Virus record (IMG/VR): IMGVR_UViG_3300022939_001431
Coordinates: 1 to 34,536 of that record
Reading direction: 5' to 3' (one strand)
Length of the DNA: 34,536 bases
DNA from: a virus
A program made the position numbers and the translations under genes. Positions 1 to 34,536 of the stretch are shown piece after piece; positions within the stretch are counted from its first letter, which is position 1, and each line of letters begins with the position of its first letter. Under the pieces are notes generated by a model. It was not told where the DNA came from. It did not search any database and worked only from the letters and a program-made list of their open reading frames with translations.

Positions 1-1
1 A

Positions 2-3000
2 TATGGTTCTGTTGATTTAGATACAGTCAGTGCGATAAACAAAGTTGAAATCACTGTACAGACAGCTGGTGCAAGATCAATGCTAGGTAACGACTTTACA
101 CAAGTTAACGACTTAGGATACGGATTAATTGTTAACAACGGTGGCTTATCAGAAATGGTGTCACAGTTTACTTACTATTGTTGGACAGCATACTACGCTA
201 ACAATGGTGGTGAAATTAGATCACTTAATGGTTCTAACGCATATGGTGAATACGGTCTAGTTGCAAACGGTTCAGATCCAAATGAAATTCCAGATGCTGT
301 AACACTACGTGATAATATGGTTAAACCAGCTAAGATTGCTTTAGCCGAAACAATATTAGAATTTAGTACAGCAATTGGAAGCGTTCCTGCTATTGCGGAA
401 AAAGGACACCAAGTAACACAAGGATCTGCAACAGGTACAGTAGTTTTTGAAACAGCAGGTAAAAAATTATATCTTAAAGATGTGTCAGGTGGATTGTTTG
501 ATATAAATGCTGATGTAATATTAAACGGAAGTACTAACCTAGGACAACCAGTTGATGTAAGTAACCCAAGTTTACGAGCAGATGCAGAACAAATTAACAT
601 CTATGTATTTGATTTTGAATCAAAACCACAGAACAGAGGTGAACTTAATATCCTGCACACAAATGGTACTATTGCCAGATATGAAGCTTCTAGTATCAAC
701 CTAGTAAAAGATTTTAGAGTAGACGGACATATTGATGTACCATTTACACCAACAGCAACAGGTACTAATGCAGAATTTGACATTCAAAAAATACTTTCAA
801 ACAAAGATAGTACAGGAACAGGCGACTATGTAGCAATCATTAGAAATGGTGGTATTAACTATACAGTTGGTGATACATTTGTTGTAGATGGTATTAATCT
901 AGATGGTGCTAGTAGTACTAATGATGCAACTATCACAGTAGACACTGTAGACACAAATGGTCAAATAAAAACTGTAACAACTACAGGTACTATAGTGCCT
1001 ACAGCAGACACACCGATCTTTGATGGACAAGTTTACAAAGTTAACTTTAGTACTGCTACAGCAGGATATAGTAATGACGGACTTGTAGAACAACTAGAAG
1101 AAGGTCATTTAATTGACTACAGACAAAACCAAGTTTTTGTAATGGACAATGTCCTTGATACAAATAGATTAACAATACGTCCAAGTACAGCATTTGAGTT
1201 TGATGAAAAAGACGGCTATACCTATAGAACAACAACATTTACAACAACAGAATCAACTGGAGAAGATTTACCTACTGATAATCAAATTTTAATGGGTCTT
1301 GATTCTACATTTGATTATGTAAGATGTATTGTAGATGAAACATATACAAATGTTGTTGTTGAACCAGGGTTTGGCGGCACAACACTAGGTGATACAAAAG
1401 GCGATGTTGGTATTGCTATTGAACCTATTACAGATGTTCAAGACGTTGCACGTTTGCGTAGAGGCGGAATGGGCTTTACATGGAACGGTAAGACCCATAT
1501 GGTTACAGACTATATACCAAGATCAGGCTACGCAATCCTAAAATTCTTTGACGTGATGGATCCATATACTCCAAGTGGTTATATTGATCTAAACAAAACA
1601 GGAAACGCAAGAGGCTTACATAGTCCTGTGAACTTATCTGGTACACAAGCATTAACTATACGTGTTGGCTTACTTAAAGATGCGCCTGGTGATATTACAA
1701 TTCAAATTTCTTTGACAAGAGCTACAGGACACGACTTCTTAGATATTGGTACAGGATCTTATAACCAAACAAACTATCCAACAGTACTATTAGGACAAGG
1801 TAGACAGAACAACCAATCCTACGAAGTTCAAGAACGTAGTAAGGGACGTGTGTTCTACGTGTCAACTGACCAAGATGGTTTCTTCCGTGTAGGTAGATTC
1901 TTTACAGTTGACCAAGGTACTGGTACAGTTACTTTTGCAGGTAGTATTGCGCTATCTAACTTAGATGGTATTGGATTTAAACGAGGTGTTGTCGTTGCTG
2001 AATTTAGTACAGACGATGGTATGACTCAAAATGCTTCAGACATTGTCCCTACACAAAACGCTGTACGTGGTTATGTAAACAGACGTTTAGGTTGGGATCA
2101 CAACGGTGTTGCTATTGGTAATATTATTGGTGGTGGTGCTATTGCTAGAGATGGCCATGCCGCAATGGTAGGAAATTTAAACCTAGGTAGTAATAGAATT
2201 GTTAACGTAAGTGCTCCAGATCAAGGATCAGATGCGGCAAACAAAAACTATGTTGATCAAGTAGCATCTAGTTCAAACAGTTTAGACTTATTACGCGATG
2301 TAATGGTTAGAAAACCTGCTTCAGATAGTGCAATACCTGATAGAGATTATTACAGTGGACAACTTTTACACTATACAGGAAACAAAATTTTACTTTTAGA
2401 TTCTTCTACTATACAAGATGGACCGTTTGATACAACCTTCCAAGGTAGTATTATTGAAGCAGGAAGTGCTAAGGGTTGGGTTCAAAGAGTTGAAACTATT
2501 GTAGACGCTGTTGTAGGTAATGCAATTAGAGTAACCTATAATGAAATATTTGGCGGTAGTGCTTTTAGTGGAAGCGGTGCAGTAACACAAAAAACTCTTA
2601 TTAGAGCATTGTCATCGCCAGGTATAACTTATAACGCTGAAGTAGGTGGTAACGGTATTGACGCGGCATTCTGGGTTAGTAAAGGTTTAGCATACGATGT
2701 TGAACTCATAACAAATGCAGGTACTGGTTATGATGCCACTGAAACATTTACTGTACCAGGAACTTTATTAGGTGGTGCTACTCCTGCAAACGATGCAACT
2801 ATTACTATTGCAACAGTTGACGGAAATGGTGCTATTACAAGTGTAACTGTATCTGGTGCCACAGGTAATACAACTGTTCCAATTTGTGATCAAGCAGATG
2901 TTGCTCCGTTGCTAGAACATGCCAACGGTAGAGATGATGGAACAAGTCAAATTGAGTTTATAACTTCTACGCAAAGCGATCACTATAGTGTAGGATATAT

Positions 3001-4234
3001 GATTAAAGACGACACTATAGTAAATGCTGATGTTAAGAGTGATGCAGGAATACTACAAAGTAAACTTGCAATGAACGCGGCAACTACTAGAGCAGATGCA
3101 GTTGGTATTGCTCAAGCAGATCTAGGACTTGCAAGTTTTGATAGTGACGACTTTGATGTAACTGACGGCTGGGTTACACTTAAAGGTGGTGCAGTCGACT
3201 TAGCTGACATACAAGAGATTGCTAACCTTACTGCACTAGGTAATATAAGTGGTGCAAGTGCTACTCCAACAGAAGTTCCAATTACTACAACTGGCGGTAG
3301 TGATAGTTTAGTAATGACAAAAAGCGATGGAAAAATTAGAACAACTGGTTTAATAGTTGGTGCTAATGATTCTTATACTATTTTACAACCTAAGTCAGGC
3401 GCGGCAACAACAATTGAAATGCTTACACCAGGTGGTGCTCAAATTTTTGAAGCAACTGGTACTAGTGCAATTACAGCTGAATTTGCGGCAAGTATTGATA
3501 TTGATAATAGTGGTGCAAATACACAAAGTACACTACAAACAAATTCAACTTTTAACAATGCAGGACGTTTAAGTTCAGATTGGATTTACACACAATTTAT
3601 TGAAGCGGCAAACGAAAAAGGCACAGGTTCAACAGGTATAGCAATAGGTGCTGGTACTGGTAAAACAAATGCAGGTGAAATTAGTTTATTGGTTGCAGAT
3701 GCGGCCGCAACTAAAGCGCCATTTAAATTTAGTAACGTAGGAGTTGTTCCTGATGTTGATAATGTATACAACATTGGACAGGGCGGCGGCTCACCTTTAA
3801 GATATAACACAGTATATGCAAGTGTATTTGATGGTACTGCAACTAAAGCTCGTTATGCTGACTTGGCAGAAAACTATCTAGCAGATGCTGAATATGAAAT
3901 AGGAACTGTTGTTGTACTAGGAGGAACAAAAGAAGTTACTTCTACTACAACCAAAGGTGATACAAGAGTGTTCGGAGTAGTTTCAGAAAATCCTGCATAC
4001 TTAATGAACAGTGAATTGCAAGGTGATTACGTAACACCTGTAGCACTAACAGGACGAGTAAAATGTAAAGTAATCGGAAATGTTAATCCGGGTGACATGC
4101 TTGTAGCAAGTGCTATTGAAGGTTATGCAATAGCTAATAACAATCCTGGTATAGGAAGTGTTATTGGTAAAGCACTAGAAGCTAAAGAAGGCGATGGCAA
4201 AGGAACAATTGAAATAGTTGTGGGGAAAGTGTAA
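2..4234 (+). CDS. Large tail-fibre-like virion structural protein (5' partial)
   Basis: The frame is open back to the left edge, so the true start lies outside the window; the first internal ATG is at 80. The segment starting SMLGNDFTQVNDLGYG (from about 77), with the following FTYYCWTAYY and IRSLNGSNAYGEYGL, is typical of large structural proteins of marine T4-like phages. Further on are fibre-type motifs such as VPTQNAVRGYVNRRLG and DAANKNYVDQ. A module of about 50 residues (DATIT.. with a VD.NG.I motif) occurs twice. The C-terminal segment from about 3838 (ARYADLAENY, EIGTVVVLGG, GRVKCKVIGNVNPGDML) resembles terminal domains of phage fibres that carry a peptidase/chaperone-like fold. It probably belongs to the tail fibre or baseplate periphery. 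Its stop overlaps the next start (TAATG), implying coupled translation. The virion role is fairly sure; the exact fibre identity is not. Confidence 0.8.
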   Translation, partial: YGSVDLDTVSAINKVEITVQTAGARSMLGNDFTQVNDLGYGLIVNNGGLSEMVSQFTYYCWTAYYANNGGEIRSLNGSNAYGEYGLVANGSDPNEIPDAVTLRDNMVKPAKIALAETILEFSTAIGSVPAIAEKGHQVTQGSATGTVVFETAGKKLYLKDVSGGLFDINADVILNGSTNLGQPVDVSNPSLRADAEQINIYVFDFESKPQNRGELNILHTNGTIARYEASSINLVKDFRVDGHIDVPFTPTATGTNAEFDIQKILSNKDSTGTGDYVAIIRNGGINYTVGDTFVVDGINLDGASSTNDATITVDTVDTNGQIKTVTTTGTIVPTADTPIFDGQVYKVNFSTATAGYSNDGLVEQLEEGHLIDYRQNQVFVMDNVLDTNRLTIRPSTAFEFDEKDGYTYRTTTFTTTESTGEDLPTDNQILMGLDSTFDYVRCIVDETYTNVVVEPGFGGTTLGDTKGDVGIAIEPITDVQDVARLRRGGMGFTWNGKTHMVTDYIPRSGYAILKFFDVMDPYTPSGYIDLNKTGNARGLHSPVNLSGTQALTIRVGLLKDAPGDITIQISLTRATGHDFLDIGTGSYNQTNYPTVLLGQGRQNNQSYEVQERSKGRVFYVSTDQDGFFRVGRFFTVDQGTGTVTFAGSIALSNLDGIGFKRGVVVAEFSTDDGMTQNASDIVPTQNAVRGYVNRRLGWDHNGVAIGNIIGGGAIARDGHAAMVGNLNLGSNRIVNVSAPDQGSDAANKNYVDQVASSSNSLDLLRDVMVRKPASDSAIPDRDYYSGQLLHYTGNKILLLDSSTIQDGPFDTTFQGSIIEAGSAKGWVQRVETIVDAVVGNAIRVTYNEIFGGSAFSGSGAVTQKTLIRALSSPGITYNAEVGGNGIDAAFWVSKGLAYDVELITNAGTGYDATETFTVPGTLLGGATPANDATITIATVDGNGAITSVTVSGATGNTTVPICDQADVAPLLEHANGRDDGTSQIEFITSTQSDHYSVGYMIKDDTIVNADVKSDAGILQSKLAMNAATTRADAVGIAQADLGLASFDSDDFDVTDGWVTLKGGAVDLADIQEIANLTALGNISGASATPTEVPITTTGGSDSLVMTKSDGKIRTTGLIVGANDSYTILQPKSGAATTIEMLTPGGAQIFEATGTSAITAEFAASIDIDNSGANTQSTLQTNSTFNNAGRLSSDWIYTQFIEAANEKGTGSTGIAIGAGTGKTNAGEISLLVADAAATKAPFKFSNVGVVPDVDNVYNIGQGGGSPLRYNTVYASVFDGTATKARYADLAENYLADAEYEIGTVVVLGGTKEVTSTTTKGDTRVFGVVSENPAYLMNSELQGDYVTPVALTGRVKCKVIGNVNPGDMLVASAIEGYAIANNNPGIGSVIGKALEAKEGDGKGTIEIVVGKV
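878..1000 (+). repeat. First copy of a duplicated beta-rich module in the fibre protein
   Basis: The encoded segment has the order G-T/D-TF-V-x-G, an L-x-GA step, NDATIT, a VD-x-NG-x-I motif and a closing V-x-x-x-G. It recurs at about 2731-2862 in the same gene (TFTVPGTLLGGATPANDATI). Similarity is clear at protein level and weak at DNA level, so this looks like an old internal duplication of a fibre module. Confidence 0.55.
2731..2862 (+). repeat. Second copy of the duplicated beta-rich module
   Basis: Encodes GTGYDATETFTVPGT followed by ANDATITIATVDGNGAI, matching the module at about 878-1000. The two are separated by roughly 1.8 kb of other fibre sequence, so this is a dispersed repeat and not a tandem one. 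Confidence 0.5.
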
Positions 4235-6183
4235 TGACTAAACAAGTAGTAAACATAGGAACTAGTGCTAACAAAGGTGATGGCGATCCATTACGCACAG
4301 CGTTTAGGAAAATAAACGAAAACTTTGATGAAGTTTACAGTGATGTAAAACAGCTTAACAGTGTAAACTTTGGTGGTGGAACTATCACAAGTGATATTAT
4401 AGGTACTGTAAGCGGTACTGACAGTACAATGCTTGTTGATGGTAACAACAGTAAAGTTGTTGGTCCTATTGAAAGTTCTACTTGGACAAGGCCTACAGGA
4501 GATATTGAAATAGAAGCAACAGCAGACAATGTTGTAATTGAAGCTGGAACCACAGTGACAATGCAACACGTATCTGCACAAGATTATGTTCAAGTATCTA
4601 ACAATGGTACAGTGATATACAGCGATAGTTCAATACAACTAAAAACAGCAGGACAAGACATACAAATAGGATATGATGTAGCAAGTGGTGATGTACAAAT
4701 AGGACACAGCAGTTCACAACTTTTTGTAAATGGAACACTAACTGTAAACGAATTTGCAAAAATTGTTCCACCAGACTATGACACAGTCGCGAGAGACGGT
4801 TTAGCTGGCCTGTCAGACGGTTCATTAATTTTTAACACTGATTCAAATAATTTAGAAATGTATGTAGGCGGTGTATGGAAAAATGCAACTGCAACAGACA
4901 TAGGCGATTTAACAGATAACGGAAGTTTAATTCCAGCAGATGTAAGTGATTTAACAGATACAACGAATATTATTCCAGCAGACGTAAGTGATTTAACAGA
5001 TACAACTAGTATAATTCCAAACGATATTGGAGATCTATTAGCAGGTGGTAACACAGGAGATGTTGTTACAAAAACAGCAATAGGCTATGGATGGACAGCA
5101 CCGAACTATTTTGGAGGTGCATTTTCAGATCTAACATCAACACCAACCACATTAGCAGGTTATGGAATTACAGACGCAGTTGCTCTTACAGGATTAAGTG
5201 TATCAACAGCAAGTGCAGGCACAGCCGCACTAGCATATAATAATTTAACAGGTGCATTTACATTTACTCCACCAGATTTAAGTTCATACTTAACAAGTTA
5301 CACAGAAACAGACCCAGTAGTAGGTGCAATCACAGGAATAGTAAAAGCAGATGGTGCAGGTAATATATCAGCGGCAGTTGCAGGAACTGACTATTTGGCA
5401 AGTGTTGCATTTGGTGATTTAACTAGCACACCAACTACACTTGTTGGTTATGGCATTACAGATGCGGCAACATTAAACAATATGGCTCCAACAGGTGCAG
5501 TTGACTTTACAGGTGCAACAAGTGTAGACTTTACTGGTGCAACAATTACAGCATTAGACTCATCAGGACTTACTAAACCTATTGACCTTGACGATAATGA
5601 GGAAGTTAGGTTTGGCACTGATAATGATATGAGAATATATCACAGTGGCACAACAGGTAACATCGATAACAACACAGGCACTTTAATCATAAGCGGTCCA
5701 ACTGTTAGAATACAAGATGGCGCATTGGCAAATACTGCTATATCAGCCGCAAACGGTATTGCTACACTTTATCACACAAACACAGCAGTTTTAAACACAA
5801 CAGCAGGTGGCATACAGATAGAAAAAGGTGTTAGAGAAAAGTTTGCTACAACCAACGGTGCTACAGGAGTTACAGCATTAGATTGTTCAACAGGACACGT
5901 TCATTATCTAACAGCACCAGCAGGTGATATTACAGCAAACTTTACTAATTTAGATTTAACAGCAGAATACGCAACCAATGTAACTGTTGTAATTGATCAA
6001 GGTGGAACAGAATACGAAATCACAGCAGTACAAATTGGTGGTGTAGCACAAACAATAGTTTGGCAAGGCAACAGTGCGCCAACAGGAACAGCAAACGGAG
6101 TAGACAGTTTTTCATTCACAATATTAAACGATGGCGGAACATATGTTGTGCTAGGACAAATGGTAGCATTTGGAGGAGTTTAA
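4234..6183 (+). CDS. Tail-fibre protein with N-terminal anchoring module
   Basis: A 649-residue protein. Residues about 6-36 carry the module NIGTSANKGDGDPL..AFRKINENFDEVY, which recurs in the gene at 14459 and is typical of marine T4-like tail and baseplate proteins; its likely job is attachment to the baseplate or a neighbouring fibre. The middle has short repeats (DVSDLTDTT.IIP, nt about 4904-5035) and two fibre-type motifs with the pattern DLTSTPTTL.GYGITDA (nt about 5128-5180 and 5416-5468). The C-terminal 110 residues form a beta-rich domain ending YVVLGQMVAFGGV, common at the tips of phage appendages. The start overlaps the previous stop by one base and is followed three bases after its own stop by the next gene. 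The fibre assignment is by motif; receptor specificity cannot be read. Confidence 0.8.
   Translation: MTKQVVNIGTSANKGDGDPLRTAFRKINENFDEVYSDVKQLNSVNFGGGTITSDIIGTVSGTDSTMLVDGNNSKVVGPIESSTWTRPTGDIEIEATADNVVIEAGTTVTMQHVSAQDYVQVSNNGTVIYSDSSIQLKTAGQDIQIGYDVASGDVQIGHSSSQLFVNGTLTVNEFAKIVPPDYDTVARDGLAGLSDGSLIFNTDSNNLEMYVGGVWKNATATDIGDLTDNGSLIPADVSDLTDTTNIIPADVSDLTDTTSIIPNDIGDLLAGGNTGDVVTKTAIGYGWTAPNYFGGAFSDLTSTPTTLAGYGITDAVALTGLSVSTASAGTAALAYNNLTGAFTFTPPDLSSYLTSYTETDPVVGAITGIVKADGAGNISAAVAGTDYLASVAFGDLTSTPTTLVGYGITDAATLNNMAPTGAVDFTGATSVDFTGATITALDSSGLTKPIDLDDNEEVRFGTDNDMRIYHSGTTGNIDNNTGTLIISGPTVRIQDGALANTAISAANGIATLYHTNTAVLNTTAGGIQIEKGVREKFATTNGATGVTALDCSTGHVHYLTAPAGDITANFTNLDLTAEYATNVTVVIDQGGTEYEITAVQIGGVAQTIVWQGNSAPTGTANGVDSFSFTILNDGGTYVVLGQMVAFGGV
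4904..5035 (+). repeat. Short tandem repeats in fibre gene
   Basis: About three imperfect units of roughly 45 bases encode DIGDLTDNGSLIPA, DVSDLTDTTNIIPA and DVSDLTDTTSIIPN, ending in DIGDL. The DNA repeat core is gtaagtgatttaacagata. Such units form elongated shaft segments in fibres and may vary in number between strains. Confidence 0.65.
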
Positions 6184-6186
6184 TAG

Positions 6187-7044: not shown

Positions 7045-7053
7045 GGATAAGAA

Positions 7054-13398: not shown

Positions 13399-13409
13399 AG
13401 GATTAAGAA

Positions 13410-20137: not shown

Positions 20138-20811
20138 TGAGTACAGAAGCACTTAGACAACAAAAATTATATGATGAAGGATTGCGTGAATTCATGCTTA
20201 ATATGTATAACCACACAGCGGCAGGACTAGCTGTAAGTGGAGTGGTGGCATGGTTTGTTTATTCTTCAGGCTTGCTTTTTGCTATGGCAGGCTCTTTATG
20301 GCTTTTTGCACTTGCTCCATTAGGAATGATTCTTTGGTATTCATTTGCAGGACGCAATTGGGCATATGAAAAACTACGTAATTTTTATTACGCATTCACA
20401 GCAGTTATGGGAGTTGGACTTGCTCCTATTTTTGCAGTTTATACTGGTGCAAGTATTACACAAGTATTTTTTATTACCGCCGCAACCTTTGGCGGTGCAA
20501 GTCTTTGGGGTTACACAACAAAGCGTGACCTAACAGGCTTCGGACATTTCTTGTTCATGGGCTTAATTGGTATTATTATTGCAAGTATTGTAAACTTGTT
20601 TATGGCAAGTTCTGCACTAATGTTTACTATTAGTATTTTAGGTGTGTTTATCTTTACAGGATTAACTGCTTGGGATACACAAAACGCAAAAAACATTTAT
20701 CTTTCACATGGTGGCGATCCACGTTATGGCATACAATTTGCTATTAGCTTGTATCTAAACTTTATCAATCTATTTCAAATGCTACTTGCATTGTTAGGAA
20801 ATAGAGAATAA
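20134..20811 (+). CDS. Bax inhibitor-1/YccA family membrane protein
   Basis: A 225-residue multi-pass membrane protein with about seven hydrophobic segments. DEGLREFMLNMYNHTAAGLA at the start, TKRDLTGFGHFLFMGLIGII in the middle and SLYLNFINLFQMLLALLGNR at the end match bacterial BI-1/YccA proteins, with the alphaproteobacterial style of N-terminus (D.GLR.YM...YN.MA.GLA). In E. coli, YccA inhibits the membrane protease FtsH; other BI-1 members leak calcium or protons. In a phage it could shield membrane proteins from FtsH, delay host death or tune membrane state. The gene overlaps mazG by four bases. The family is clear, the role in infection inferred, and host origin likely. Confidence 0.88.
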   Translation: MMSTEALRQQKLYDEGLREFMLNMYNHTAAGLAVSGVVAWFVYSSGLLFAMAGSLWLFALAPLGMILWYSFAGRNWAYEKLRNFYYAFTAVMGVGLAPIFAVYTGASITQVFFITAATFGGASLWGYTTKRDLTGFGHFLFMGLIGIIIASIVNLFMASSALMFTISILGVFIFTGLTAWDTQNAKNIYLSHGGDPRYGIQFAISLYLNFINLFQMLLALLGNRE

Positions 20812-21432: not shown

Positions 21433-21453
21433 AAAAGACAATAGGAGTTTATA

Positions 21454-21618
21454 ATGAAGTTTCCAGAACAAAAAAACACTGGTGTTGGTACTGCTGGTTT
21501 GGCAGGAATAGCACTTATGGTATTACATGTAACAGGGCATCTCACAGGATGGGCTTGGCCTTTACTTTATGTATTCTTAATTTTAGTCGGAATAGGAATG
21601 GAAAATAATAAGAAATGA
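21454..21618 (+). CDS. Small two-segment membrane protein
   Basis: A 54-residue protein (MKFPEQKNTGVGTAGLAGIA...). Two hydrophobic stretches (about residues 13-28 and 33-48) flank a TGHLTGWAW turn, so it is probably an inner-membrane hairpin. It has an AGGAG site and lies directly behind the sigma70-type promoter as first gene of the gp44 operon; its stop overlaps the gp44 start (ATGA). No homologue is recognised. An early membrane peptide could alter host membrane functions or superinfection, but that is speculation. Confidence 0.65.
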   Translation: MKFPEQKNTGVGTAGLAGIALMVLHVTGHLTGWAWPLLYVFLILVGIGMENNKK

Positions 21619-22529
21619 AAGAATTATGGGTAGAGAAATATCGTCCTAAAACAGTAGACGGTTATGTATTTAGAGATGACGCACAAAGAAACCAAGTTAA
21701 AACATGGATCAAAGATAAAACTATTCCGCATTTGCTTTTTAGTGGCAATGCTGGTATTGGTAAAACTACTCTTGCTAAATTACTTTTTAATGAGCTTGAA
21801 GTAAACGATCTAGACATACTTGAAATCAATGCTAGTAGAACAAACAGTGTTGATGACGTTCGTGATAAAATTGTTAACTTTGTACAGATGATTCCATTTG
21901 GTGACTTTAAAGTTGTACTACTAGATGAGGCTGACTATTTGTCACCAAATGCACAAGCCGCACTACGTGGTGTTATGGAAGAATATCATACAACAAGTAG
22001 ATTTATTTTGACATGTAATTATCCAAACAGAATTATTCCTGCACTACATTCAAGATGTCAAGGCTTCCACATTGCAAAGATTGATCAAACAGAGTTTACT
22101 GCTCGTGTTGCAGAGATTTGTATTACAGAAGGTGTTACTCCTGATCTTGATATACTAGACACTTATGTAAAAGCAACTTATCCAGACTTGCGTAAGTGTA
22201 TCAACATGGTACAAATGAATTGTCAAGATGGTAGTTTGCTTGCTCCACATGAAGGAGATACAGGCGAAAGTGATTGGAAACTTGACATGGTGGAACTTTT
22301 CAAAGCAGGCAAGATTCACGATGCGCGGAAACTGCTTTGTGGAACAGTTCGTCCTGAAGAAATGGAAGAAATTTATCGTTGGTTATATGACAATATTGAA
22401 TTATTTGGTGATGAAGAAAAACAAGACACAGCAGTATTAACAATTAAACAAGGATTAGTAGATCATACACTTGTAGCTGATCCTGAAATAAATTTATCGG
22501 CAACACTAATTAGATTGGCAAGATTATGA
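21615..22529 (+). CDS. 44: Sliding-clamp loader ATPase, T4 gp44-like
   Basis: A 304-residue AAA+ protein, near T4 gp44 (319). WVEKYRPKTVDGYVF at the N-terminus is the usual RFC/gp44 opening. Walker A is SGNAGIGKT (43-51), Walker B is VVLLDEADYL (D104, E105) and the SRC motif (LHSRCQGF) carries the arginine finger. It loads the gp45 clamp on primed DNA for replication and, in T4, late transcription. The small subunit gp62, which follows gp44 in T4, is not next door here: a 2OG oxygenase follows instead by ATGA overlap. Identification is strong. Confidence 0.93.
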   Translation: MKELWVEKYRPKTVDGYVFRDDAQRNQVKTWIKDKTIPHLLFSGNAGIGKTTLAKLLFNELEVNDLDILEINASRTNSVDDVRDKIVNFVQMIPFGDFKVVLLDEADYLSPNAQAALRGVMEEYHTTSRFILTCNYPNRIIPALHSRCQGFHIAKIDQTEFTARVAEICITEGVTPDLDILDTYVKATYPDLRKCINMVQMNCQDGSLLAPHEGDTGESDWKLDMVELFKAGKIHDARKLLCGTVRPEEMEEIYRWLYDNIELFGDEEKQDTAVLTIKQGLVDHTLVADPEINLSATLIRLARL

Positions 22530-24297: not shown

Positions 24298-24309
24298 GCC
24301 CCTTTCTTT
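24286..24309 (+). terminator. Hairpin terminator between convergent thyX and phoH
   Basis: An 8-base stem AAAGGGGC / GCCCCTTT with ATAA loop is followed by CTTTA. It overlaps the thyX stop codon and directly abuts the end of phoH, which is on the other strand. The T-run is better on the + strand; the reverse read also gives a stem followed by TTT, so it may stop transcription from both sides. Confidence 0.75.
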
Positions 24310-25027
24310 ATGAATCTCCATATACGTGGAGCACTTCTTTAACTGCTTCGTGTCTTTCTATATCTCCTTTTGAAAAACGGACTATGTCCAAATGATCTGT
24401 ATGAATTGTTTCTAACAGTTTAGTAAAACTTATTAAACCGTTATCTTGAAGCCTATCTGCCTGCGCTAGATCGCCTGTAACTGCCATCATTGAATTTTCG
24501 CCTAATCGTGTTAGTAACATTTTCATTTGGTTGGGTGTGGCATTTTGCATTTCGTCTGCCAATATAAAGCTATGCTTAAATGTTCTGCCTCGCATGTATG
24601 CTAATGGTGCAATCTCAACTATTCCTTCTTCGATCATACCTTCTATTTCGCGAGCATTAAAGTATTCTCGTAGCACATCAAATATAGGCCTAGTCCATGG
24701 CGCCATTTTTTGTTCTAGCGTACCTGGTAAAAAGCCCAGATCTTCATCAACACTTACCGCAGGTCTAGTAACAATAATTTTGTCAACTTTGCCTTCTTTA
24801 AACATCTTTACTGCCACTTGTACTGCGAGCAGAGTTTTTCCCGTACCTGCCGGCCCAATGCCAAAGACTATGTCTTTAGTTGGATCTAGTAGCTTTAATA
24901 TGTATTCTTCTTGATGTTTATTACGGGGAATTAAATTTACGATCTTTTTCTTTTGAGTGAACGAATTAAAATCAACAATATTGTTGAAGTTTTTGTGCCG
25001 CTGTGCGGCTTTCCTTTTTGCTCCCAT
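24308..25027 (-). CDS. phoH: PhoH-family ATPase
   Basis: A 239-residue protein, the only minus-strand gene. Walker A is GPAGTGKT (58-65) after a GIGPAGTGKTLLAVQVA strand, and Walker B is FILADEMQNATPNQMK. Also present are TRPAVSVDEDLGFLPG and a GDLAQADR motif, all typical of PhoH. PhoH is common in marine phages; it is a RecA/helicase-like P-loop ATPase, phosphate-starvation-linked in E. coli and suggested to act on RNA, though its phage job is unsettled. AGGAGG sits before the ATG. It is convergent with thyX and divergent from the late gene at 25174, with a GC-rich palindrome in the 146-base gap. Confidence 0.93.
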   Translation of the reverse strand: MGAKRKAAQRHKNFNNIVDFNSFTQKKKIVNLIPRNKHQEEYILKLLDPTKDIVFGIGPAGTGKTLLAVQVAVKMFKEGKVDKIIVTRPAVSVDEDLGFLPGTLEQKMAPWTRPIFDVLREYFNAREIEGMIEEGIVEIAPLAYMRGRTFKHSFILADEMQNATPNQMKMLLTRLGENSMMAVTGDLAQADRLQDNGLISFTKLLETIHTDHLDIVRFSKGDIERHEAVKEVLHVYGDS

Positions 25028-26429: not shown

Positions 26430-26434
26430 CCATT

Positions 26435-26587
26435 ATGCACACTTGTCAAAATTGCGGTCATCCATCACACTGCGGTATACCGTACCATAGACTTGAAACA
26501 GACTATAATGGTGCAACTTATCAAATAAAGGTATGTGACCATTGTAGATGCAAACAGTGCGAAAACAAGGATCAGGAAAATGGCTAA
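26435..26587 (+). CDS. Small Cys/His-rich putative zinc-binding protein
   Basis: A 50-residue protein. It starts MHTCQNCGHPSHCG and later has CDHCRCKQC, giving CxxC at 4/7, H9, H12, C13, H18, and CxxCxCxxC at 34/37/39/42. With eight cysteine or histidine candidates arranged in two clusters, it likely binds one or two zinc ions. It lies just before the endolysin, whose start it overlaps by 8 bases. A zinc ribbon of this size could be a transcription or translation modulator. I know no homologue; the ORF is short, but its composition argues for a real gene. Confidence 0.6.
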   Translation: MHTCQNCGHPSHCGIPYHRLETDYNGATYQIKVCDHCRCKQCENKDQENG

Positions 26588-27428
26588 AGAACATTTTAAA
26601 TTTGAATTTGAAGAATGGATGGCTGAAGAGCTTATTCATAGAGACGATTGGAAAGAATGGTATGAGGCAATGTGTGAGATATTACCTCTATGGGAAGTCG
26701 ATACAATCGAAAGGGTTGCAATGTTTCTTGCTCAGTGTGGGCACGAATCAGGCGGCTTTAGGGTACTAAGTGAAAACTTAAACTATAGCGCCGCGGCTCT
26801 AAATAAAATCTTCCCGAAATACTTTATCAGGGCAGGTAGAAATGCACAAGATTATCATAGACAGCCTGAAAGAATTGCAAACGTTATATATGCAGGTCGC
26901 ATGGATAACGGCGATACTGATAGTGGCGACGGTTGGCGTTTTAGGGGTGGTGGAATACTACAACTCACAGGACGTTATAACTATACAAAATTTGGTGAAG
27001 CAGTAGATATGTCACCAGAAGAAGCAGTTGACTATGTACGCACTAAAAAAGGCGCACTAGATTCAGCATGTTGGTTCTGGGATACAAATGGCATTAACAA
27101 ATACTGTGATGCAATGGACGTTGTTGGTGCAACTAAACGTATCAACGGCGGCACAATTGGTTTAGACGATCGTAAAAAACACTATCTACATGCAATTGAT
27201 GTACTTGGTGGCGATTATGAAGAACCAACTATCGATTATAACCAAACAGTGAAGCAAGGATCACGTGGTCCATTAGTAGCAGAAGTACAAGAGAAATTAA
27301 ATATTTCTCCTGCTGATGGCATCTTTGGTCCAGGTACTGCACGTATCGTCAAAGAATGGCAAGCAAGCCAAGGCTTAGTAGCTGACGGTATTGTAGGACC
27401 AAAAACACTGGGAAAATTACTAGGGTAG
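26580..27428 (+). CDS. Endolysin: GH19-type glycoside hydrolase with peptidoglycan-binding domain
   Basis: A 282-residue protein. I prefer ATG 26580 (MAKEHFKFEFEEW), which has AGGA upstream, to the longer frame from 26535 that overlaps the small zinc protein further. The GH19 core has CGHESGGFRVLSENLNYSA with catalytic E56 and second acidic E65, then FPKYF and WRFRGGGILQLTGRYNY. The C-terminal 70 residues hold a PG_binding_1 repeat (VKQGSRGPLVAEVQEKL, DGIFGPGTARIVKEWQA, DGIVGPKTLGKLL). It cuts the glycan strand of peptidoglycan at lysis. There is no signal peptide, so it needs a holin. It opens the lysis block. Confidence 0.9.
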   Translation: MAKEHFKFEFEEWMAEELIHRDDWKEWYEAMCEILPLWEVDTIERVAMFLAQCGHESGGFRVLSENLNYSAAALNKIFPKYFIRAGRNAQDYHRQPERIANVIYAGRMDNGDTDSGDGWRFRGGGILQLTGRYNYTKFGEAVDMSPEEAVDYVRTKKGALDSACWFWDTNGINKYCDAMDVVGATKRINGGTIGLDDRKKHYLHAIDVLGGDYEEPTIDYNQTVKQGSRGPLVAEVQEKLNISPADGIFGPGTARIVKEWQASQGLVADGIVGPKTLGKLLG

Positions 27429-27433
27429 GTGGT

Positions 27434-28383: not shown

Positions 28384-28386
28384 ATA
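28379..28386 (+). promoter_or_regulatory. Late-promoter-like octamer AATAAATA
   Basis: AATAAATATG overlaps the stop of the o-spanin gene, four bases before the ATG of the NlpC/P60-like gene. Weaker context than the GATAAATA sites, because AT-rich DNA makes such matches easy by chance. Confidence 0.35.
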
Positions 28387-28390
28387 TGTT

Positions 28391-28858: not shown

Positions 28859-28861
28859 ATA
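28854..28861 (+). promoter_or_regulatory. Late-promoter-like octamer AATAAATA
   Basis: GAATAAATACAC overlaps the preceding stop and lies 22 bases before ATG 28884, with GAAAGGA between, a spacing like the sites at 14433 and 17515. Confidence 0.45.
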
Positions 28862-28883
28862 CACATAGTAGAAAGGATATACT

Positions 28884-29180: not shown

Positions 29181-29535
29181 GGAATTAGAAGCAAAACAAC
29201 CTGCACCTAAAGCTGATGCAGAGATAGTAGTTCCTGCCGCAAGTGAAGGTGTAAGCAAAAAAGTTAAACTTGATTTAGAAGTAGATACAAGTGTTAAGGA
29301 CTTAGGACCTAATCCTTACGTTAAAGTTATACATATGGCAAAAGCTGTTGATAGTTGGAGAATTTTCCCTCGTATCTTTATAACAGTATACATTATTTTA
29401 TTGTACAAAGTTGTAATATGGTATATGGAACTACCTGATCCTACTATGGAACAATCAGGTTTAGTATCTATCGTAGTTGGTGCTGGCGCGGCATGGTTTG
29501 GCTTGTATACCGGATCTAGTAAATCTAACAAATAA
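29161..29535 (+). CDS. Two-segment membrane protein, holin candidate
   Basis: A 124-residue protein from ATG 29161 (MPRKSLEELEAKQP), with GGAGG before it. After a 65-residue polar N-terminus come two membrane segments (about 71-89, RIFITVYIILLYKVVIWYM; and 100-117, GLVSIVVGAGAAWFGLY) and a short polar tail. The last segment resembles that of holin-like proteins in marine T4-like phages. It lies right after the endolysin, spanins and NlpC/P60-like gene, so holin is a sensible call, though no holin family can be confirmed. It overlaps the previous gene by 20 bases. Confidence 0.62.
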   Translation: MPRKSLEELEAKQPAPKADAEIVVPAASEGVSKKVKLDLEVDTSVKDLGPNPYVKVIHMAKAVDSWRIFPRIFITVYIILLYKVVIWYMELPDPTMEQSGLVSIVVGAGAAWFGLYTGSSKSNK

Positions 29536-29539
29536 CTAC

Positions 29540-29547
29540 GATAAGTA
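29540..29547 (+). promoter_or_regulatory. Degenerate late-type octamer GATAAGTA
   Basis: GATAAGTA sits between the membrane protein and the DnaJ-like gene, 5 bases before its ATG. It differs from GATAAATA by one base. No SD is seen before this ATG. Weak site. Confidence 0.25.
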
Positions 29548-29552
29548 GATGT

Positions 29553-30398
29553 ATGGACTACTATCAAACCCTAGGTGTCAATAAAGATGCATCTCCAGAA
29601 CAATTAAAGAAAGCATACCGAAAACTTGCTATGGAAAACCATCCTGATAGAACAGGTGGTGATGATACTCGATTCAAACAAATCAACGAAGCATACGACA
29701 CACTAAAAGATCCTCAAAAAAGGCAAGCATATGATAATCCACAGCCAGACATGAATGGCTTTAGATATAGTACTGATGGATTTGACGGAGGTATGCCAGG
29801 AGGATTTGAAGATATATTCCAAGCGTTTGGGTTTAATCCGTTCCAAGCTCAAAGACAAAGGCAAAGAGCAGATATTACAATAGCAGTAAAAATAAATTTT
29901 GAAGAAGCATATAGAGGAAAGACAATAATAGGTACATACAGGCTTAGAACTGGTAGGGAAGAAACAGTAGAAATACAAATACCTAAAGGTGCCCAACATG
30001 GTAATAAAATTAGATACAGTGGTTTTGGTGAACAATTACCAAACGGACAAAGAGGAGATTTATATGTACAAATTAATGTCCAACCACACAGTAAATATAC
30101 ATTGAATGGATTAAATATTAATACAGTAATTAATATTGATATTTTTGACTTAATTACAGGGGGAGCAGTCAACTTAAAAACTTTAGATGGAAGTGTAATT
30201 AAGCTGAATATACCCCCAGGAACTAATCCAGGTACTAGATTAAGTGTTACTGGCCACGGTTGGCCTGATGTAAGAACAGGGTCAAAAGGTAACATGCTTG
30301 TACAAATTAACGCAATTATGCCTAAAAATTTAGGTATTACTGAAGTAGATGCTATTAGGAAGATAAAAAAGAGATTGGCAAAAAAAGGCATTGACTAA
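29553..30398 (+). CDS. dnaJ: DnaJ-like co-chaperone, CbpA type (no zinc finger)
   Basis: A 281-residue protein. The J domain (1-65) has YYQTLGVNKDASPEQLKKAY and the HPD motif at 30-32 (ENHPDRTGG). A Gly/Phe-rich linker with GGMPGGFEDIFQAFGFNP follows, then two C-terminal beta domains (IPKGAQHGNKIRYSGFGEQL; IPPGTNPGTRLSVTGHGWPD). The four CxxCxGxG zinc motifs of DnaJ are missing, so it is a class B/CbpA-like protein. It would stimulate the ATPase of host DnaK and steer its clients, as lambda O/P uses DnaJ. It precedes a ClpA-like unfoldase; the two may share a job. The ClpA promoter overlaps its end. Confidence 0.9.
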   Translation: MDYYQTLGVNKDASPEQLKKAYRKLAMENHPDRTGGDDTRFKQINEAYDTLKDPQKRQAYDNPQPDMNGFRYSTDGFDGGMPGGFEDIFQAFGFNPFQAQRQRQRADITIAVKINFEEAYRGKTIIGTYRLRTGREETVEIQIPKGAQHGNKIRYSGFGEQLPNGQRGDLYVQINVQPHSKYTLNGLNINTVINIDIFDLITGGAVNLKTLDGSVIKLNIPPGTNPGTRLSVTGHGWPDVRTGSKGNMLVQINAIMPKNLGITEVDAIRKIKKRLAKKGID

Positions 30399-30419
30399 TT
30401 GAAGAAAATTGTATATACT
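30391..30419 (+). promoter_or_regulatory. Consensus sigma70-type promoter
   Basis: TTGACT (30391-30396) and TATACT (30414-30419) are 17 bases apart, the same hexamers and spacing as the promoter at 21404. It overlaps the dnaJ stop and lies 31 bases before the ClpA-like ATG, with AAGGAG between. The repeated design suggests one early/middle class of promoters in this phage. Confidence 0.75.
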
Positions 30420-30450
30420 AAGGACTAGTTTAAGGAGATAATAAAATAAT

Positions 30451-32688
30451 ATGGTAGAACCGAGCGAAACATTACAGGTTGTATTTGAAAAAGCAATTAA
30501 AGATGCTAAAAAACTTAGTCATGAATATGTGACTGTAGAGCATTTATTGTTTGCAATGTTATGTGAAGAAAATTTTATTAATGTCATAAAAGGATATGGT
30601 GCTGATTTAGATTACCTAAAACAGAATCTTGAGCATCATTTGAAGAACAACTGTGACGAATTAAAGATTACAGATTCAAAATTCAAACCTAAAAAAACAC
30701 AGACTGTCGAACGGGTTCTAAATAGAGCGTTTACACAAGTTTTGTTTAGTGGACGAAGTGCAATTGAATTATCAGACGTACTTATAAGTATACTTGCAGA
30801 AAAGAAATGTGTAAGTGTTTATTATTTGCATAAATCAAAAGTTCAAAAAGATTCATTTGCAGAATATGTAAGTAGTGAAATTGAAGATCTACAAGATGAA
30901 GAAATGACCGGTGAAGCAACAAGAGCTTTACGTGCATTTACTACAAATTTAAATGAAGAAGTTAAAAAACAAAAAGTAGATCCAGTTATTGGTAGATCAG
31001 ATGAACTAGAAAGTATTGCACTAGCACTAGGTCGACGTGCAAAAAACAATGTTTTGTTAGTTGGTGATCCTGGTGTTGGTAAAACTGCTATTGCAGAGGG
31101 TATGGCTTATAATATTGTAATGGGTAATGTACCAGAATTCCTTAAAGAATACAATGTTTATAATTTAGATATTGGCGCAATGTTAGCAGGATCAAAATAC
31201 AGAGGTGATTTTGAAGAACGTTTTAAAATGATTTTACATGCTCTTAAAAAGAAGGGCAAAACAATTATGTTTGTTGACGAAGCACATATGATGAGTGGTG
31301 CAGGATCAGGCGGACAAGGTAATTCAAATGATCTAGCAAATATGTTAAAACCTGCACTTTCAAAAGGTGATCTAAAAGTCATTGCATCAACTACATGGGA
31401 AGAATTCCGCAAATATTTTGAAAAAGATAGAGCATTGATGCGCCGCTTCCAACGTGTTACAGTTGACGAACCTAGCAAAGATGTAACGAAAGATATTTTA
31501 AATGGAATTAAAAAATATTACGAAGATTATCATAAAACAAATATTACAGAAGAAGCAATTGAAGAAGCAATCAAGTTAAGCGTTAAGTATCAGCCTGACA
31601 AAAAACTGCCTGATAAAGCTATTGATTTGATAGACGTTGCATGTTCTAGATTTAATCTTAAAGACAAAGACGTAGAAAGAAAAATTGGCGTAGAAGAAAT
31701 ACAATTTGAACTTGCTAGAATTGTTAAAATGCCTGAAGAGCAGGTTGCTGAAAAAGAAACTGACAATCTAAAACACTTAGAAGAAAATTTAAAGAAAGCA
31801 GTATACGGACAAGACAAAGCAATTGAAGAAGTTGTTGATAAAATACTGGTTGCACAAGCAGGACTGAAGGCAGAAGACAAACCTATTGGATCGTTTGTGT
31901 TTATGGGTCCAACAGGTACAGGTAAAACTGAGACAGCAAAACAACTTGCAAAACAATTAGGTGTACAACTAGTACGTTTTGATATGAGTGAATATCAAGA
32001 GAAACACTCTGTGGCAAAACTAATTGGTTCGCCTCCAGGTTATGTAGGCTATGAAGAAAACCAAGGATTGTTAATTACAAAATTACAAGAAAATCCTAAT
32101 TGTGTGCTACTGCTAGACGAAGTTGAAAAAGCACATCCAGATGTTTCACAGATTTTATTACAAGTTATGGACAATGGTAAACTAACAGGTTCTAATGGTA
32201 AAGAAGCAGATGCAAGGAATTGTGTTTTGATTCTTACAACTAACTTAGGTGCACAAGAAGCTGAGAAAAATTCAATTGGTTTTGATGGTGGCGAAAAAGA
32301 TTATGAAGATACAGATCTAAAGAAATATTTTGCTCCAGAATTTAGAAACAGATTAGATGGAACAATTACTTTTGGTGCATTGACTAAAGAAGTAATGATG
32401 AAAATTGTAGGCAAGTTCTTAGTAGAACTTACAGATATGATTACACAAAAGAATATCAAAATTAATCTTGATAACGAAGCACTTGATGTATTAGTAGATA
32501 AAGGTTTTGATAAACGTATGGGCGCAAGACCGCTACAACGTGTAATTGACAAGGATATTAAACGTCCGTTGTCACGCATGATGTTATTTGGTGACCTTAA
32601 AAACGGTGGTTCTGTAAACATTACAGTTAAAGATAATGAAATATATTTAGATGTACAAACAAAGGAGCACGTTGTTGAAAACACTTGA
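30451..32688 (+). CDS. clpA: ClpA-like AAA+ unfoldase
   Basis: A 745-residue protein, close to E. coli ClpA (758). An N-terminal Clp repeat domain (VFEKAIKDAKKLSHEYVTVE, HLLFAML) is followed by AAA-1 with Walker A GDPGVGKT (205-212) and Walker B TIMFVDEAHMM, then AAA-2 with Walker A GPTGTGKT (486-493), Walker B LLLDEVEKAHPD and the GARPLQRVID sensor region. The ClpB middle coiled coil is absent, so it is ClpA/C type and not a disaggregase. The loop NSIGFDGGEKD carries IGF, which in ClpX docks ClpP; ClpA normally has IGL. No clpP is in this window, so it may use host ClpP. It follows a sigma70-type promoter, giving early or middle expression. Confidence 0.92.
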   Translation: MVEPSETLQVVFEKAIKDAKKLSHEYVTVEHLLFAMLCEENFINVIKGYGADLDYLKQNLEHHLKNNCDELKITDSKFKPKKTQTVERVLNRAFTQVLFSGRSAIELSDVLISILAEKKCVSVYYLHKSKVQKDSFAEYVSSEIEDLQDEEMTGEATRALRAFTTNLNEEVKKQKVDPVIGRSDELESIALALGRRAKNNVLLVGDPGVGKTAIAEGMAYNIVMGNVPEFLKEYNVYNLDIGAMLAGSKYRGDFEERFKMILHALKKKGKTIMFVDEAHMMSGAGSGGQGNSNDLANMLKPALSKGDLKVIASTTWEEFRKYFEKDRALMRRFQRVTVDEPSKDVTKDILNGIKKYYEDYHKTNITEEAIEEAIKLSVKYQPDKKLPDKAIDLIDVACSRFNLKDKDVERKIGVEEIQFELARIVKMPEEQVAEKETDNLKHLEENLKKAVYGQDKAIEEVVDKILVAQAGLKAEDKPIGSFVFMGPTGTGKTETAKQLAKQLGVQLVRFDMSEYQEKHSVAKLIGSPPGYVGYEENQGLLITKLQENPNCVLLLDEVEKAHPDVSQILLQVMDNGKLTGSNGKEADARNCVLILTTNLGAQEAEKNSIGFDGGEKDYEDTDLKKYFAPEFRNRLDGTITFGALTKEVMMKIVGKFLVELTDMITQKNIKINLDNEALDVLVDKGFDKRMGARPLQRVIDKDIKRPLSRMMLFGDLKNGGSVNITVKDNEIYLDVQTKEHVVENT

Positions 32689-33337
32689 GACAACAAAACT
32701 TTTTTATGACATTTATCCGTACAAAATTGACCTAAGACTACAGCTTGCTCCAATATTTAGAGAAAAAAAGTTCGGATATACTAGAGAAGTTTTAGACTAT
32801 ATCCAATTAGATTACGAGCTTGGTAGACCTTTAATATGGAGGAAGGGTTATAGGACCACAGAGCCTCTAGAAATAAACTCTTTTTTAGATGCTAAATTAT
32901 TTTTCAATATTTGCCAAAGTTTAAATTATGAGGATTATAAATTAAGAGTTGAACAATCACATTTAGCTCTTTATACTAAAGAATATTCTATAGTAGATAA
33001 AATAAAAAACCTTATGCATGATAAAATTGTTAGTATTCATGAACCAAATAAGCAAGTTGATTTACAACCAAATACAATCTATACTGAAAAACCAATCGAA
33101 TACGAATACAAAGTTACACTAGGAAACAAAGTAAACCCTGGTGCAGGCAAATGGATAGAGAATAATCCATCACTAATTAAGGCTGGTCAAATTTGTATTG
33201 AAAATATTAAAAATGACGGTTATACACAGGGTTTTTACATATTTGCAAAAAACGAAAAGGTGCTTAACCTTTTATCTATCGCACTAGGTGGCAATATCAA
33301 GCGTGTCGACAAGTATATCAACATAACGCAAAGTTGA
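32675..33337 (+). CDS. Conserved phage protein of unknown function
   Basis: Encodes about 220 residues (LKTLETTKLFYDIYPYKIDL...). I prefer a TTG start at 32675 (or 32672), since AAAGGAG at 32661-32667 is well placed for it; the ATG at 32651 lies inside the ClpA-like gene before that site. The sequence is Lys/Tyr/Leu-rich with no membrane segment. The last third (YTQGFYIFAKNEKVLNLLSI, then ALGGNIKRVDKY) looks like a compact alpha/beta domain. It overlaps clpA by 14 bases, so it is probably co-translated and might be an adaptor or client of it. No family is recognised. Confidence 0.55.
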   Translation: MKTLETTKLFYDIYPYKIDLRLQLAPIFREKKFGYTREVLDYIQLDYELGRPLIWRKGYRTTEPLEINSFLDAKLFFNICQSLNYEDYKLRVEQSHLALYTKEYSIVDKIKNLMHDKIVSIHEPNKQVDLQPNTIYTEKPIEYEYKVTLGNKVNPGAGKWIENNPSLIKAGQICIENIKNDGYTQGFYIFAKNEKVLNLLSIALGGNIKRVDKYINITQS

Positions 33338-33343
33338 TAAATA
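33336..33343 (+). promoter_or_regulatory. Late-promoter-like octamer GATAAATA
   Basis: TTGATAAATACTG overlaps the stop of the preceding gene and lies 4 bases before the ATG at 33348. The exact GATAAATAC sequence also occurs at 14433. A leaderless message, or reading into the gene at 33699, would follow if it acts. Confidence 0.45.
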
Positions 33344-33347
33344 CTGT

Positions 33348-33689
33348 ATGCCAAGTAATAGTGAAACAATTTTAACACAACAAACGCATCCAGCGGATAG
33401 CTCTACTCAAACCGTAACTGGTGACAAGTATAAGGGCGACGGTTACTACGGACGTAGTGACGGAATACATACGATTCAGTATAATTATACTGATTTAATA
33501 GGTACGATTACAATACAAGGAACACTTGCAGTAACGCCTGCTAACGAAGATTGGTTTGATGTACATACATATACAGAAACTAGTGCTACAGATAGTAAAA
33601 TTGTAAACTTTACAGGAAATTACGTGTGGATCAGAGCAAAATTAGAGTATACACAAGGCACTGTACACCAAATTTTATTAAACCATTAA
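33348..33689 (+). CDS. Small virion-type beta-rich protein
   Basis: A 113-residue protein. TGDKYKGDGYYGRSDGIHTI, LIGTITIQGTLAVTPANEDW and NFTGNYVWIRAKLEYTQGTV are features of a small beta-sandwich protein I recognise from structural regions of marine T4-like phages. There are no Cys or membrane segments. A late-type octamer lies just upstream. A minor capsid or tail decoration protein is likely. Spacing to the next gene is nine bases with AAGGAAG. Confidence 0.65.
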   Translation: MPSNSETILTQQTHPADSSTQTVTGDKYKGDGYYGRSDGIHTIQYNYTDLIGTITIQGTLAVTPANEDWFDVHTYTETSATDSKIVNFTGNYVWIRAKLEYTQGTVHQILLNH

Positions 33690-33698
33690 GGAAGTATT

Positions 33699-34457
33699 AT
33701 GGAACATTTTATTAGAGTAGTAATGGAAAACACAGATGAACTTCATGAAGGACTAAATGAAGATGTATTTCCAGGTTGTGAATTTTTAGAATCTGAGCAG
33801 GGAGCATCAGTATTTCATATACCTTTAAATAGACAACTGACCGATGAAGAAGCAGACGAATATGCTGACAAACTTGTTGAATATGTAACAGGTTTAGGTT
33901 ATGAAGATTTTGATATCGAAATAAGCACAGATGAAGAAGCACCATTAGAAGAAACTTATGACGGTGATGATTTCTTTGAAGAATATGGTGTTATGTGGTT
34001 CAACGAAGATGAAGATGAAGGCTTAGACGAAAGATCAGAATTTGAAAAATACAGAAATATGCGTATTGTTTACGATCCAGAAACATTGGAAATAAAAAAA
34101 ACGTATCCGATGATGCATATCAAACAATCTACTGCTGACGCTGATAGAATGGGATTAGTAGCAACAGATGGTGCTCAATATTTAGAACTTAGAAAAAAAA
34201 GAAAAGCAATGGACGAAGCAGAATATCAAGGACGCAAAGTTAAACTTGGCAAACCTATGCGTGGAGATGTTAAGAAGTTCAAAGTATACGTAAGAGATCC
34301 AAAGACTAAAAACATAAAGAAAGTTAACTTTGGTGATCCTAATATGAAAATTAAAAAATCCAATCCTGCTAGACGCAGAAGTTTCCGTGCAAGACACAAC
34401 TGTGATAATCCAGGTCCAAGAACAAAAGCAAGGTACTGGAGTTGTAGGAAGTGGTAA
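33699..34457 (+). CDS. Conserved phage protein with acidic N-terminus and basic C-terminal domain
   Basis: A 252-residue protein in two parts. Residues 1-120 are strongly acidic (EEADEYADKL, STDEEAPLEETYDGDDF, NEDEDEGLDE). The last 75 residues are basic (GRKVKLGKPMRGDVKKFKVY, NPARRRSFRARHNCDNPGPR, TKARYWSCRKW) and form a domain that recurs in marine T4-like phages; C and H residues in RHNCD and YWSCR could bind metal or nucleic acid. The charge split suggests an assembly factor or an internal head protein. Not identified beyond that. The stop is followed at once by the next ATG. Confidence 0.62.
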   Translation: MEHFIRVVMENTDELHEGLNEDVFPGCEFLESEQGASVFHIPLNRQLTDEEADEYADKLVEYVTGLGYEDFDIEISTDEEAPLEETYDGDDFFEEYGVMWFNEDEDEGLDERSEFEKYRNMRIVYDPETLEIKKTYPMMHIKQSTADADRMGLVATDGAQYLELRKKRKAMDEAEYQGRKVKLGKPMRGDVKKFKVYVRDPKTKNIKKVNFGDPNMKIKKSNPARRRSFRARHNCDNPGPRTKARYWSCRKW

Positions 34458-34536
34458 ATGAAGTTCACTGATTTTAAAGTTCTCAACGAAGCTGGTATAA
34501 GTAAAGCACTGCTATTGAAACATAGCGGGAAGTACC
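34458..34536 (+). CDS. Start of a further gene (3' partial)
   Basis: ATG 34458 directly follows the previous stop (TAAATG) and opens MKFTDFKVLNEAGISKALLL, then KHSGKY, up to the window edge. Only 26 residues are visible. The helical start is of a kind seen in conserved marine T4-like phage proteins next to the preceding family, but nothing more can be said. Confidence 0.55.
   Translation, partial: MKFTDFKVLNEAGISKALLLKHSGKY

Follow-up and report, generated by a model that had tools for sequence, protein, structure and literature searches.

GCWGC, that is, GCAGC or GCTGC, is the palindromic word of restriction enzymes of the TseI/ApeKI type, and GCAGC, the word of BbvI, gives the same set of words on the two strands. 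The loss of restriction words from phages was surveyed by Rusinov et al. (2018; PMC6286503). In that survey, a site counts as eliminated if observed/expected is below 0.1 with more than 15 copies expected, and elimination is reported in about one-tenth of viral genomes; it amounts to 7.1% for Type II sites and to under 0.5% for other types, and the loss of Type II sites is complete or near-complete and strongest in non-temperate double-stranded DNA phages. Here we analyse a virus record of 34,536 bases (IMGVR_UViG_3300022939_001431, positions 1 to 34,536; the window), which is part of a marine jumbo-phage line purged of GCWGC.

The preliminary description of the window, made from its letters, had claimed that both words are missing. 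Indeed, a machine count found no GCAGC and no GCTGC on either strand at positions 1 to 34536, against 41.7 sites expected from a maximal-order Markov model (below, pairs of the form 0/41.7 give word counts against Markov expectation). Over the 34,536 bases the values were 0/24.4 for GCAGC and 0/17.3 for GCTGC, and 39/21.4 and 18/10.3 for GCGGC and GCCGC, which had rightly been called common. When synonymous codons were shuffled within each of 32 chosen open reading frames (ORFs; 11,128 codons, 1000 draws), 36.7±2.7 GCWGC sites were expected (minimum 27) versus none observed, and 13.8±3.5 GCSGC versus 57 observed, so GCSGC is enriched. With a second Markov estimate of 43.6, the expectation across methods is 37–44; the ‘roughly 20' sites first predicted were too few, and a low expectation from base composition was rejected as an explanation. 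At 0/43.6 the window lies within the elimination threshold of PMC6286503, where the statistic may differ from the Markov expectation used here. Near-variants of the word are spared: GCSGC stands at 57/31.9, GCAGT at 72/71.1, ACAGC at 82/72.2 and TCAGC at 60/33.5, and most other counted variants are near or above expectation, the lowest being GGAGC at 33/42. The purged word is a restriction recognition site, and the constraint bears on GCWGC itself, as had been proposed.

Relatives were found with the window's sliding-clamp loader subunit (T4 gp44-like; positions 21615 to 22529, plus strand; phrog_168, 1e-75) as the query. From the viral contig scan the best 80 loci were retained, with gp44 90–100% identical to that of the window, and further relatives came from two more gp44 scans and from three that targeted other parts of the genome; loci too short for word counts were dropped (under 6, 7, 8 or 20 kb, depending on the scan). 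As a reference genome we used J335, a 335-kb contig in a metagenome-assembled genome (MAG) record (L249) whose gp44 is 92% identical. Some records in the pooled word sets, such as G047 and G059, are near-identical. Candidate host loci in genome contigs numbered 11; every one lay in a MAG record, the phyla were mixed and the bins may be wrong, so that these loci were not used as host evidence.

Many of the relatives have GCWGC at normal frequency, whereas some lack it and others are partly depleted, and the purged word differs between lineages. Records that avoid GCWGC and keep AGCT (the window, G003, G027, G006 and L001) together have 0/184 in 163 kb, the window and L001 being in part near-duplicates, since their gp44 sequences are the same. 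CATG is purged, with normal GCWGC, in eight records (0/881 pooled over 302 kb, some of them near-identical); G040 alone has 0/221, and G044 has 1/119. ACWGT is purged with normal GCWGC in G051 (0/163) and G048 (0/81), AGCT with normal GCWGC in G016 (0/66), and AGCT and GCWGC are both purged in eight records (0/294 and 0/177, in a set that holds near-identical pairs). CTAG is absent from G007 (0/128), where GCWGC is partly depleted (22/71), and CTWAG from G004 (0/22), with GCWGC at 12/23. The motifs are exact, as GCSGC, ACSGT and CTSAG are undepleted where GCWGC, ACWGT and CTWAG are at zero. Among loci of 8 kb or longer, some of which share a contig, a word with no copy at an expectation of at least 14 was found in 26 of 119 at gp44 and in 28 of 149 at other genome positions; both shares are floors, because short loci are underpowered. 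At a looser threshold, 50 of the 119 and 41 of the 149 loci have a strongly depleted word.

We placed 124 records on a tree of ten proteins, chosen so that synonymous recoding could not shape the tree; the change counts exclude records that are partial or underpowered. The minimum number of changes was five for GCWGC (19 records avoid, 88 do not), five for CATG (12 and 111), two for AGCT (10 and 102) and two for ACWGT (3 and 119), values that are approximate since the tree is a quick one with 25 of 111 inner forks open. An artefact of sequencing or assembly is improbable, given that different words are missing from contigs of the same metagenome: in metagenome 3300023178, L009 has CTAG at 0/128 and L029 has ACTGC at 2/24, and in 3300021964, L003 and L014 have GCWGC at 0/66 and 27/38.5.

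The preliminary description had also noted about 40 recoded alanine–alanine (Ala–Ala) pairs. There are exactly 40, and the first codon is GCG in 24 of them, GCC in 16 and GCA or GCT in none. Of the remaining 763 Ala codons, which precede other codons, 474 are GCA, 234 GCT, 35 GCG and 20 GCC, so that GCA and GCT make up 708 of all 803 Ala codons. Three of the examples given earlier are exact (GCGGC at 20218 to 20222, plus strand; GCCGC at 26790 to 26794, plus strand; and position 29488), and four fall within a few bases, namely GCGGC at 2234 to 2238 (plus strand) for 2235, and 3401, 7555 and 8356 for 3406, 7552 and 8352. As Ala–Ala pairs account for about 34 of the 37 coding GCWGC sites expected, a codon-pair or translational bias against GCA-GC and GCT-GC might be thought sufficient. 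We compared 12 records of similar overall Ala usage. First codons of Ala–Ala pairs ending in W and in S numbered 0 and 40 in the window, 0 and 62 in G003, 0 and 48 in G014, and 0 and 43 in G027; 24 and 403, 10 and 90, and 95 and 124 in the partially depleted J335, G013 and G018; and 161 and 39 in G049, 97 and 19 in G040, 94 and 31 in G043, 159 and 19 in G051, and 298 and 90 in G053. Relatives with similar Ala usage, some of which purge other words, thus start most such pairs with GCA or GCT, which excludes codon-pair bias as the explanation. The window therefore shows neither a normal number of GCWGC sites, nor equal avoidance of GCSGC, nor an absence for which codon-pair bias would suffice.

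To see how sites were lost, we aligned orthologous genes codon by codon in 17 pairs of an avoider and a relative and read the avoider's sequence at the relative's sites. None of the 614 sites survives in the avoider (a total with repeat counting, as pairs share genomes), while 28–50% of the other words of the same length are identical. Of the 77 CATG sites in G050, none is kept in G040 (background 34%); the same holds for the 88 in G051 compared with G047 (39%), and for the 97 ACWGT sites in G024 compared with G051 (32%). A single change destroyed the site in 56 of the 77 and 69 of the 88 CATG losses, in 49 of the 97 ACWGT losses, and in 9 of 24 and 7 of 14 AGCT losses. The protein is unchanged in 50 of the 77 losses in G040 relative to G050, and in about half to four-fifths of losses in most pairs.

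Loss through mutation is the alternative that this spectrum addresses: if GCWGC cytosines were methylated, by host or phage, sites could decay by deamination. Changes of C to T are common among CATG and CTAG losses, as that explanation predicts. However, the single CATG changes in G040 relative to G050 comprise 20 T3>C and 19 C1>T, followed by five A2>T and fewer of the others, and 10 of 13 single GCWGC changes in G003 are A3>G or A3>C, which do not come from deamination of C. The C5 methylase family PF00145 was found in none of 50 records, and decay would be expected to leave residual sites rather than none of hundreds. Deamination was rejected, as the losses affect more than one position and run both ways; we regard it as highly unlikely. 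The loss pattern is that of selection against the word rather than of decay of methylated bases. Together, the codon shuffle, the relatives' Ala–Ala codons and the substitution pattern, which is thin for GCWGC, indicate that selection acts on DNA rather than through codons or mutation.

Intermediate states were also observed. J335 has GCWGC at 35/413, and its residual sites are evenly spread (χ2 16.4, 21 degrees of freedom, P 0.75 over 330 kb), so the depletion is genome-wide and not confined to a patch; G018 has 101/219. We infer that these intermediate lines are regaining sites rather than still losing them. The residual GCAGC in J335 (L260–L276) and G037 (L138–L139) is mostly GGCAGC (24 of 35 and 8 of 13), compared with 43 of 245 in the non-avoider G049; the share is lower in G013 (5 of 12) and not raised in G045 (1 of 36). 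In J335 and G037, sites preceded by G thus seem to be spared, like GGCAGT in G026.

The avoided word varies among relatives, intermediate states exist, and sites are lost through many kinds of substitution, which supports the earlier proposal of selection against a factor that reads GCWGC. We consider it very probable that this phage line lost all its GCWGC under a DNA-cleaving defence, most likely orthodox Type II restriction-modification in the bacteria that it usually infects; that the agent is a restriction enzyme of the host is our inference, as it was in the preliminary description. Under this proposal, each unmodified site would lower the survival odds of an entering genome, and cheap site-destroying substitutions would for that reason be fixed until no site is left. 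Relatives meeting other host systems would purge other words (CATG, AGCT, CTAG, ACWGT, CTWAG, ACTGCD and DCGAAA), and sites would drift back once the pressure is over.

Several observations weigh against host Type II restriction. No GCWGC methylase or nuclease has been linked to a host. Comparable orthologous GCWGC sites number only two for the window and 11 and 11 for G003, which makes the GCWGC spectrum thin. At the looser threshold, no word is strongly depleted in 69 of the 119 loci at gp44 and in 108 of the 149 elsewhere (all 8 kb or longer), partly through low power, and the related isolates PA5oct and Phosso have none in 30 kb. The scans for a phage nuclease described below cover sampled genome parts. 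In addition, two of the avoided words are asymmetric. In G026 (L091–L098), ACTGC stands at 13/198 and all 13 survivors are ACTGCC; in G043/G062 (L124–L127, L223–L224), CGAAA stands at 5/101 and all five survivors are CCGAAA. What has been purged, on both strands, is accordingly ACTGCD in the first case and DCGAAA in the second. Rusinov et al. (PMC6286503) report Type I and Type IIG sites as unavoided and Type III sites as very little avoided, and assign GCWGC to modification-dependent (Type IIM) as well as to orthodox Type II systems.

The last points bear on whether some other host factor reads GCWGC, such as a Type IIG, III or IV enzyme, a modification-dependent (BisI-like) nuclease or a repair enzyme. 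Phage phiX174, for example, lacks GATC, an absence that has been linked to mismatch repair escape (PMC5014478). ACTGCD and DCGAAA misfit an orthodox palindromic Type II system, the listing of GCWGC as a Type IIM word is in keeping with such a factor, and so is the preference of the residual J335 sites for GGCAGC. For the ACTGCD and DCGAAA lines, given the near-lack of avoidance of Type I, IIG and III sites in that survey, the agent may be of another type than orthodox Type II. However, most avoided words here are palindromes of 4–5 base pairs, elimination by systems other than Type II is rare in that survey, and a modification-dependent enzyme would require modified phage DNA. We therefore hold such a factor to be unlikely for GCWGC.

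Alternatively, the phages could themselves encode a GCWGC nuclease without a methylase, directed against host or competitor DNA, with their own genome kept free of sites and with relatives of other specificities. This would explain the near-perfect zeros and the switching of words among relatives, and modules of this sort do occur in phages, as in Synechococcus phage S-H9-2, where an annotated type II restriction enzyme adjoins a DNA methylase (L540:5066–6336), between the photosystem II D1 and D2 genes. That nuclease, however, has no clear relative among 8371 ORFs of the family (best E 0.22). We clustered these ORFs, from 320 records, and tested clusters for association with words (in the case of CATG, 25 avoiders were set against the other 295 records, with G080 classed as avoiding by hand because its 11 sites lie in one end). 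In the genome parts sampled, no cluster tracks an avoided word across independent lineages; the best-associated ones are confined to one clade or tied to the genome position sampled, and those enriched resemble, by eye, an oxygenase, a MazG-like protein, a structural protein and others.

PADLOC and Pfam scans were run on 33 proteins of the window, 67 of G075 and 74 of G040, a record without CATG over 72 kb; the input for the last two was 141 of 155 listed ORFs, and ORFs under 90 or over 1500 amino acids or spanning 20-kb borders were excluded. No Type II nuclease is among the 25 families listed per PADLOC or Pfam scan of these three sets (for PADLOC, 25 of 37, 39 and 31). The matches listed include two homing-endonuclease matches and an ultraviolet endonuclease, and others, unassigned to single proteins, are to the defence models DndD, DndA/SspA, PbeC, mad2/mad3 and, weakly, DrmMII. 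Of other methylases, the N6/N4 family PF01555 was found in 4 of 35 records and the Dam-type family PF02086 in 2 of 31, with one above the cut-off in each case; a methylase-like cluster with an SPPY motif, read by eye, occurs in eight records with differing words. G053 (L229–L240), with AATT at 265/1200 in 237 kb, has a Dam-type methylase at 140147–140848 whose neighbours, by eye, show no obvious nuclease. We think a phage-encoded nuclease quite unlikely. More doubtful still is a bolder form of it, in which the marine clade would carry an interchangeable word-specific cutter without a methylase, each line would be immune solely through the rewriting of its entire genome, and each swap of weapon would force a new rewriting; its gene would then be located outside the sampled portion of a genome of about 335 kb or have diverged beyond recognition.

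Further word patterns were noted in the same records. CATG is confined to one end patch of two otherwise CATG-free contigs, with eight sites in G075:100317–102508 (L533; none in the first 100 kb and eight in the last 4 kb) and 11 in G080:865–7159 (L539); these patches can be read as the product of a recent recombination event or as chimeric ends of the contigs. Several of the larger records (J335, G053, G026, G049, G043 and G051) have far fewer GTGCAC than expected, whichever word is purged, for example 2/64 in J335 and 5/55 in G053. A scan for bipartite (Type I-like) words gave weaker depletions, for example TTCNGAA at 10/67 in G051 and ACTNAGT at 0/31 in K58. Distant marine relatives in MAG records (L251–L253, L277–L279; gp44 71–72% identical) lack AGCT and GCWGC wholly or nearly so, like several members of the near clade.

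Within the window, the GCWGC constraint extends over genes of different kinds. The window encodes tail fibre-like proteins, and the constraint is shown by the gene of one of 1384 amino acids (80 to 4234, plus strand; phrog_9851 tail fiber, 5e-48) and equally by that of a PhoH-like ATPase (24308 to 25027; phrog_170, 2e-73), the single minus-strand ORF of the gene set used. The plus strand also encodes an endolysin (26535 to 27428; phrog_181, 3.6e-74) and a ClpA-like ATP-dependent protease subunit (30451 to 32688; phrog_4871, 8e-252) that has 70–76% identity in six related records. In the relatives, a set of 51 proteins of G075 (L528–L533) includes eight that have radical-SAM domains, two that have B12-binding domains and one IMP dehydrogenase, and the G040 (L128–L131)/G075 set includes NifU-like, Fe-S assembly and class V aminotransferase proteins.

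As controls outside the family we examined cyanophages and isolates. After a first cyanophage scan of four loci was dropped, a second gave 80 loci, of which 44 of at least 8 kb were counted. A word is at zero in 20 of the 44, mostly CTCAG and often CTAAG as well, a share above that of the phage family. In a group of marine cyanophage contigs within L545–L624, CTCAG is absent, CTAAG often absent, and CCGG absent in four. CTCAG and CTAAG together fit CTNAG, which we take to be the DdeI word. Five isolate stretches were tested. Xanthomonas phage XacN1 has GATC at 0/116, CCAGG at 0/46 and CTGAAG at 0/18, and Agrobacterium phage Atu_ph07 has CCAGG at 0/27, so that words familiar from textbooks are missing in two of the four relatives among the isolates; in S-H9-2, CTAG (4/61) and AGCC (12/72) are scarce. 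Site elimination is thus common, in cyanophages, in isolates and in the survey of PMC6286503, which lowers the novelty of the present case and supports restriction as its explanation. The purging of different words by close relatives is not treated in the parts of PMC6286503 drawn on here, and the literature searches made here found no description of one purged word replacing another among close phage relatives.

If host restriction is the cause, one uncultivated phage fragment exposes a defence specificity of its host, and purged words record specificities in wild marine bacteria; we know of no enzyme for ACWGT, CTWAG, ACTGCD or DCGAAA. Such words would also be a clue to hosts, in that a CATG system would be expected in whatever bacterium a CATG-free line infects. 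The series of GCWGC states, from the window (0/44) through J335 (35/413) to G018 (101/219), may serve to time the gain and loss of a defence.

Among cultivated phages, the Pseudomonas phage PA5oct group has the gp44 proteins closest to that of the window, at 55% identity; Arenbergviridae membership was compared through this identity and the local gene set. PA5oct (Arenbergviridae) clusters gp44, PhoH, DnaJ and ClpA, as the window clusters gp44, PhoH and the ClpA-like gene, but its sequence is distant from the marine clade and no word is depleted in the 30 kb tested. XacN1 and Atu_ph07, also related jumbo phages, resemble the window in that short words are wholly absent from 30 kb, and differ in the words, in having known hosts and in a gp44 only 43–47% identical. 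The purged word coincides with that of TseI/ApeKI or BbvI Type II systems, with S-centred variants spared; those are known enzymes, while here the enzyme, not found in the window, is deduced from the phage. Finally, as in the cases of Rusinov et al. (PMC6286503), Type II sites are lost completely or nearly so, with known hosts and enzymes there and uncultivated phages here. The window is thus a striking new example of a known phenomenon rather than a new kind.

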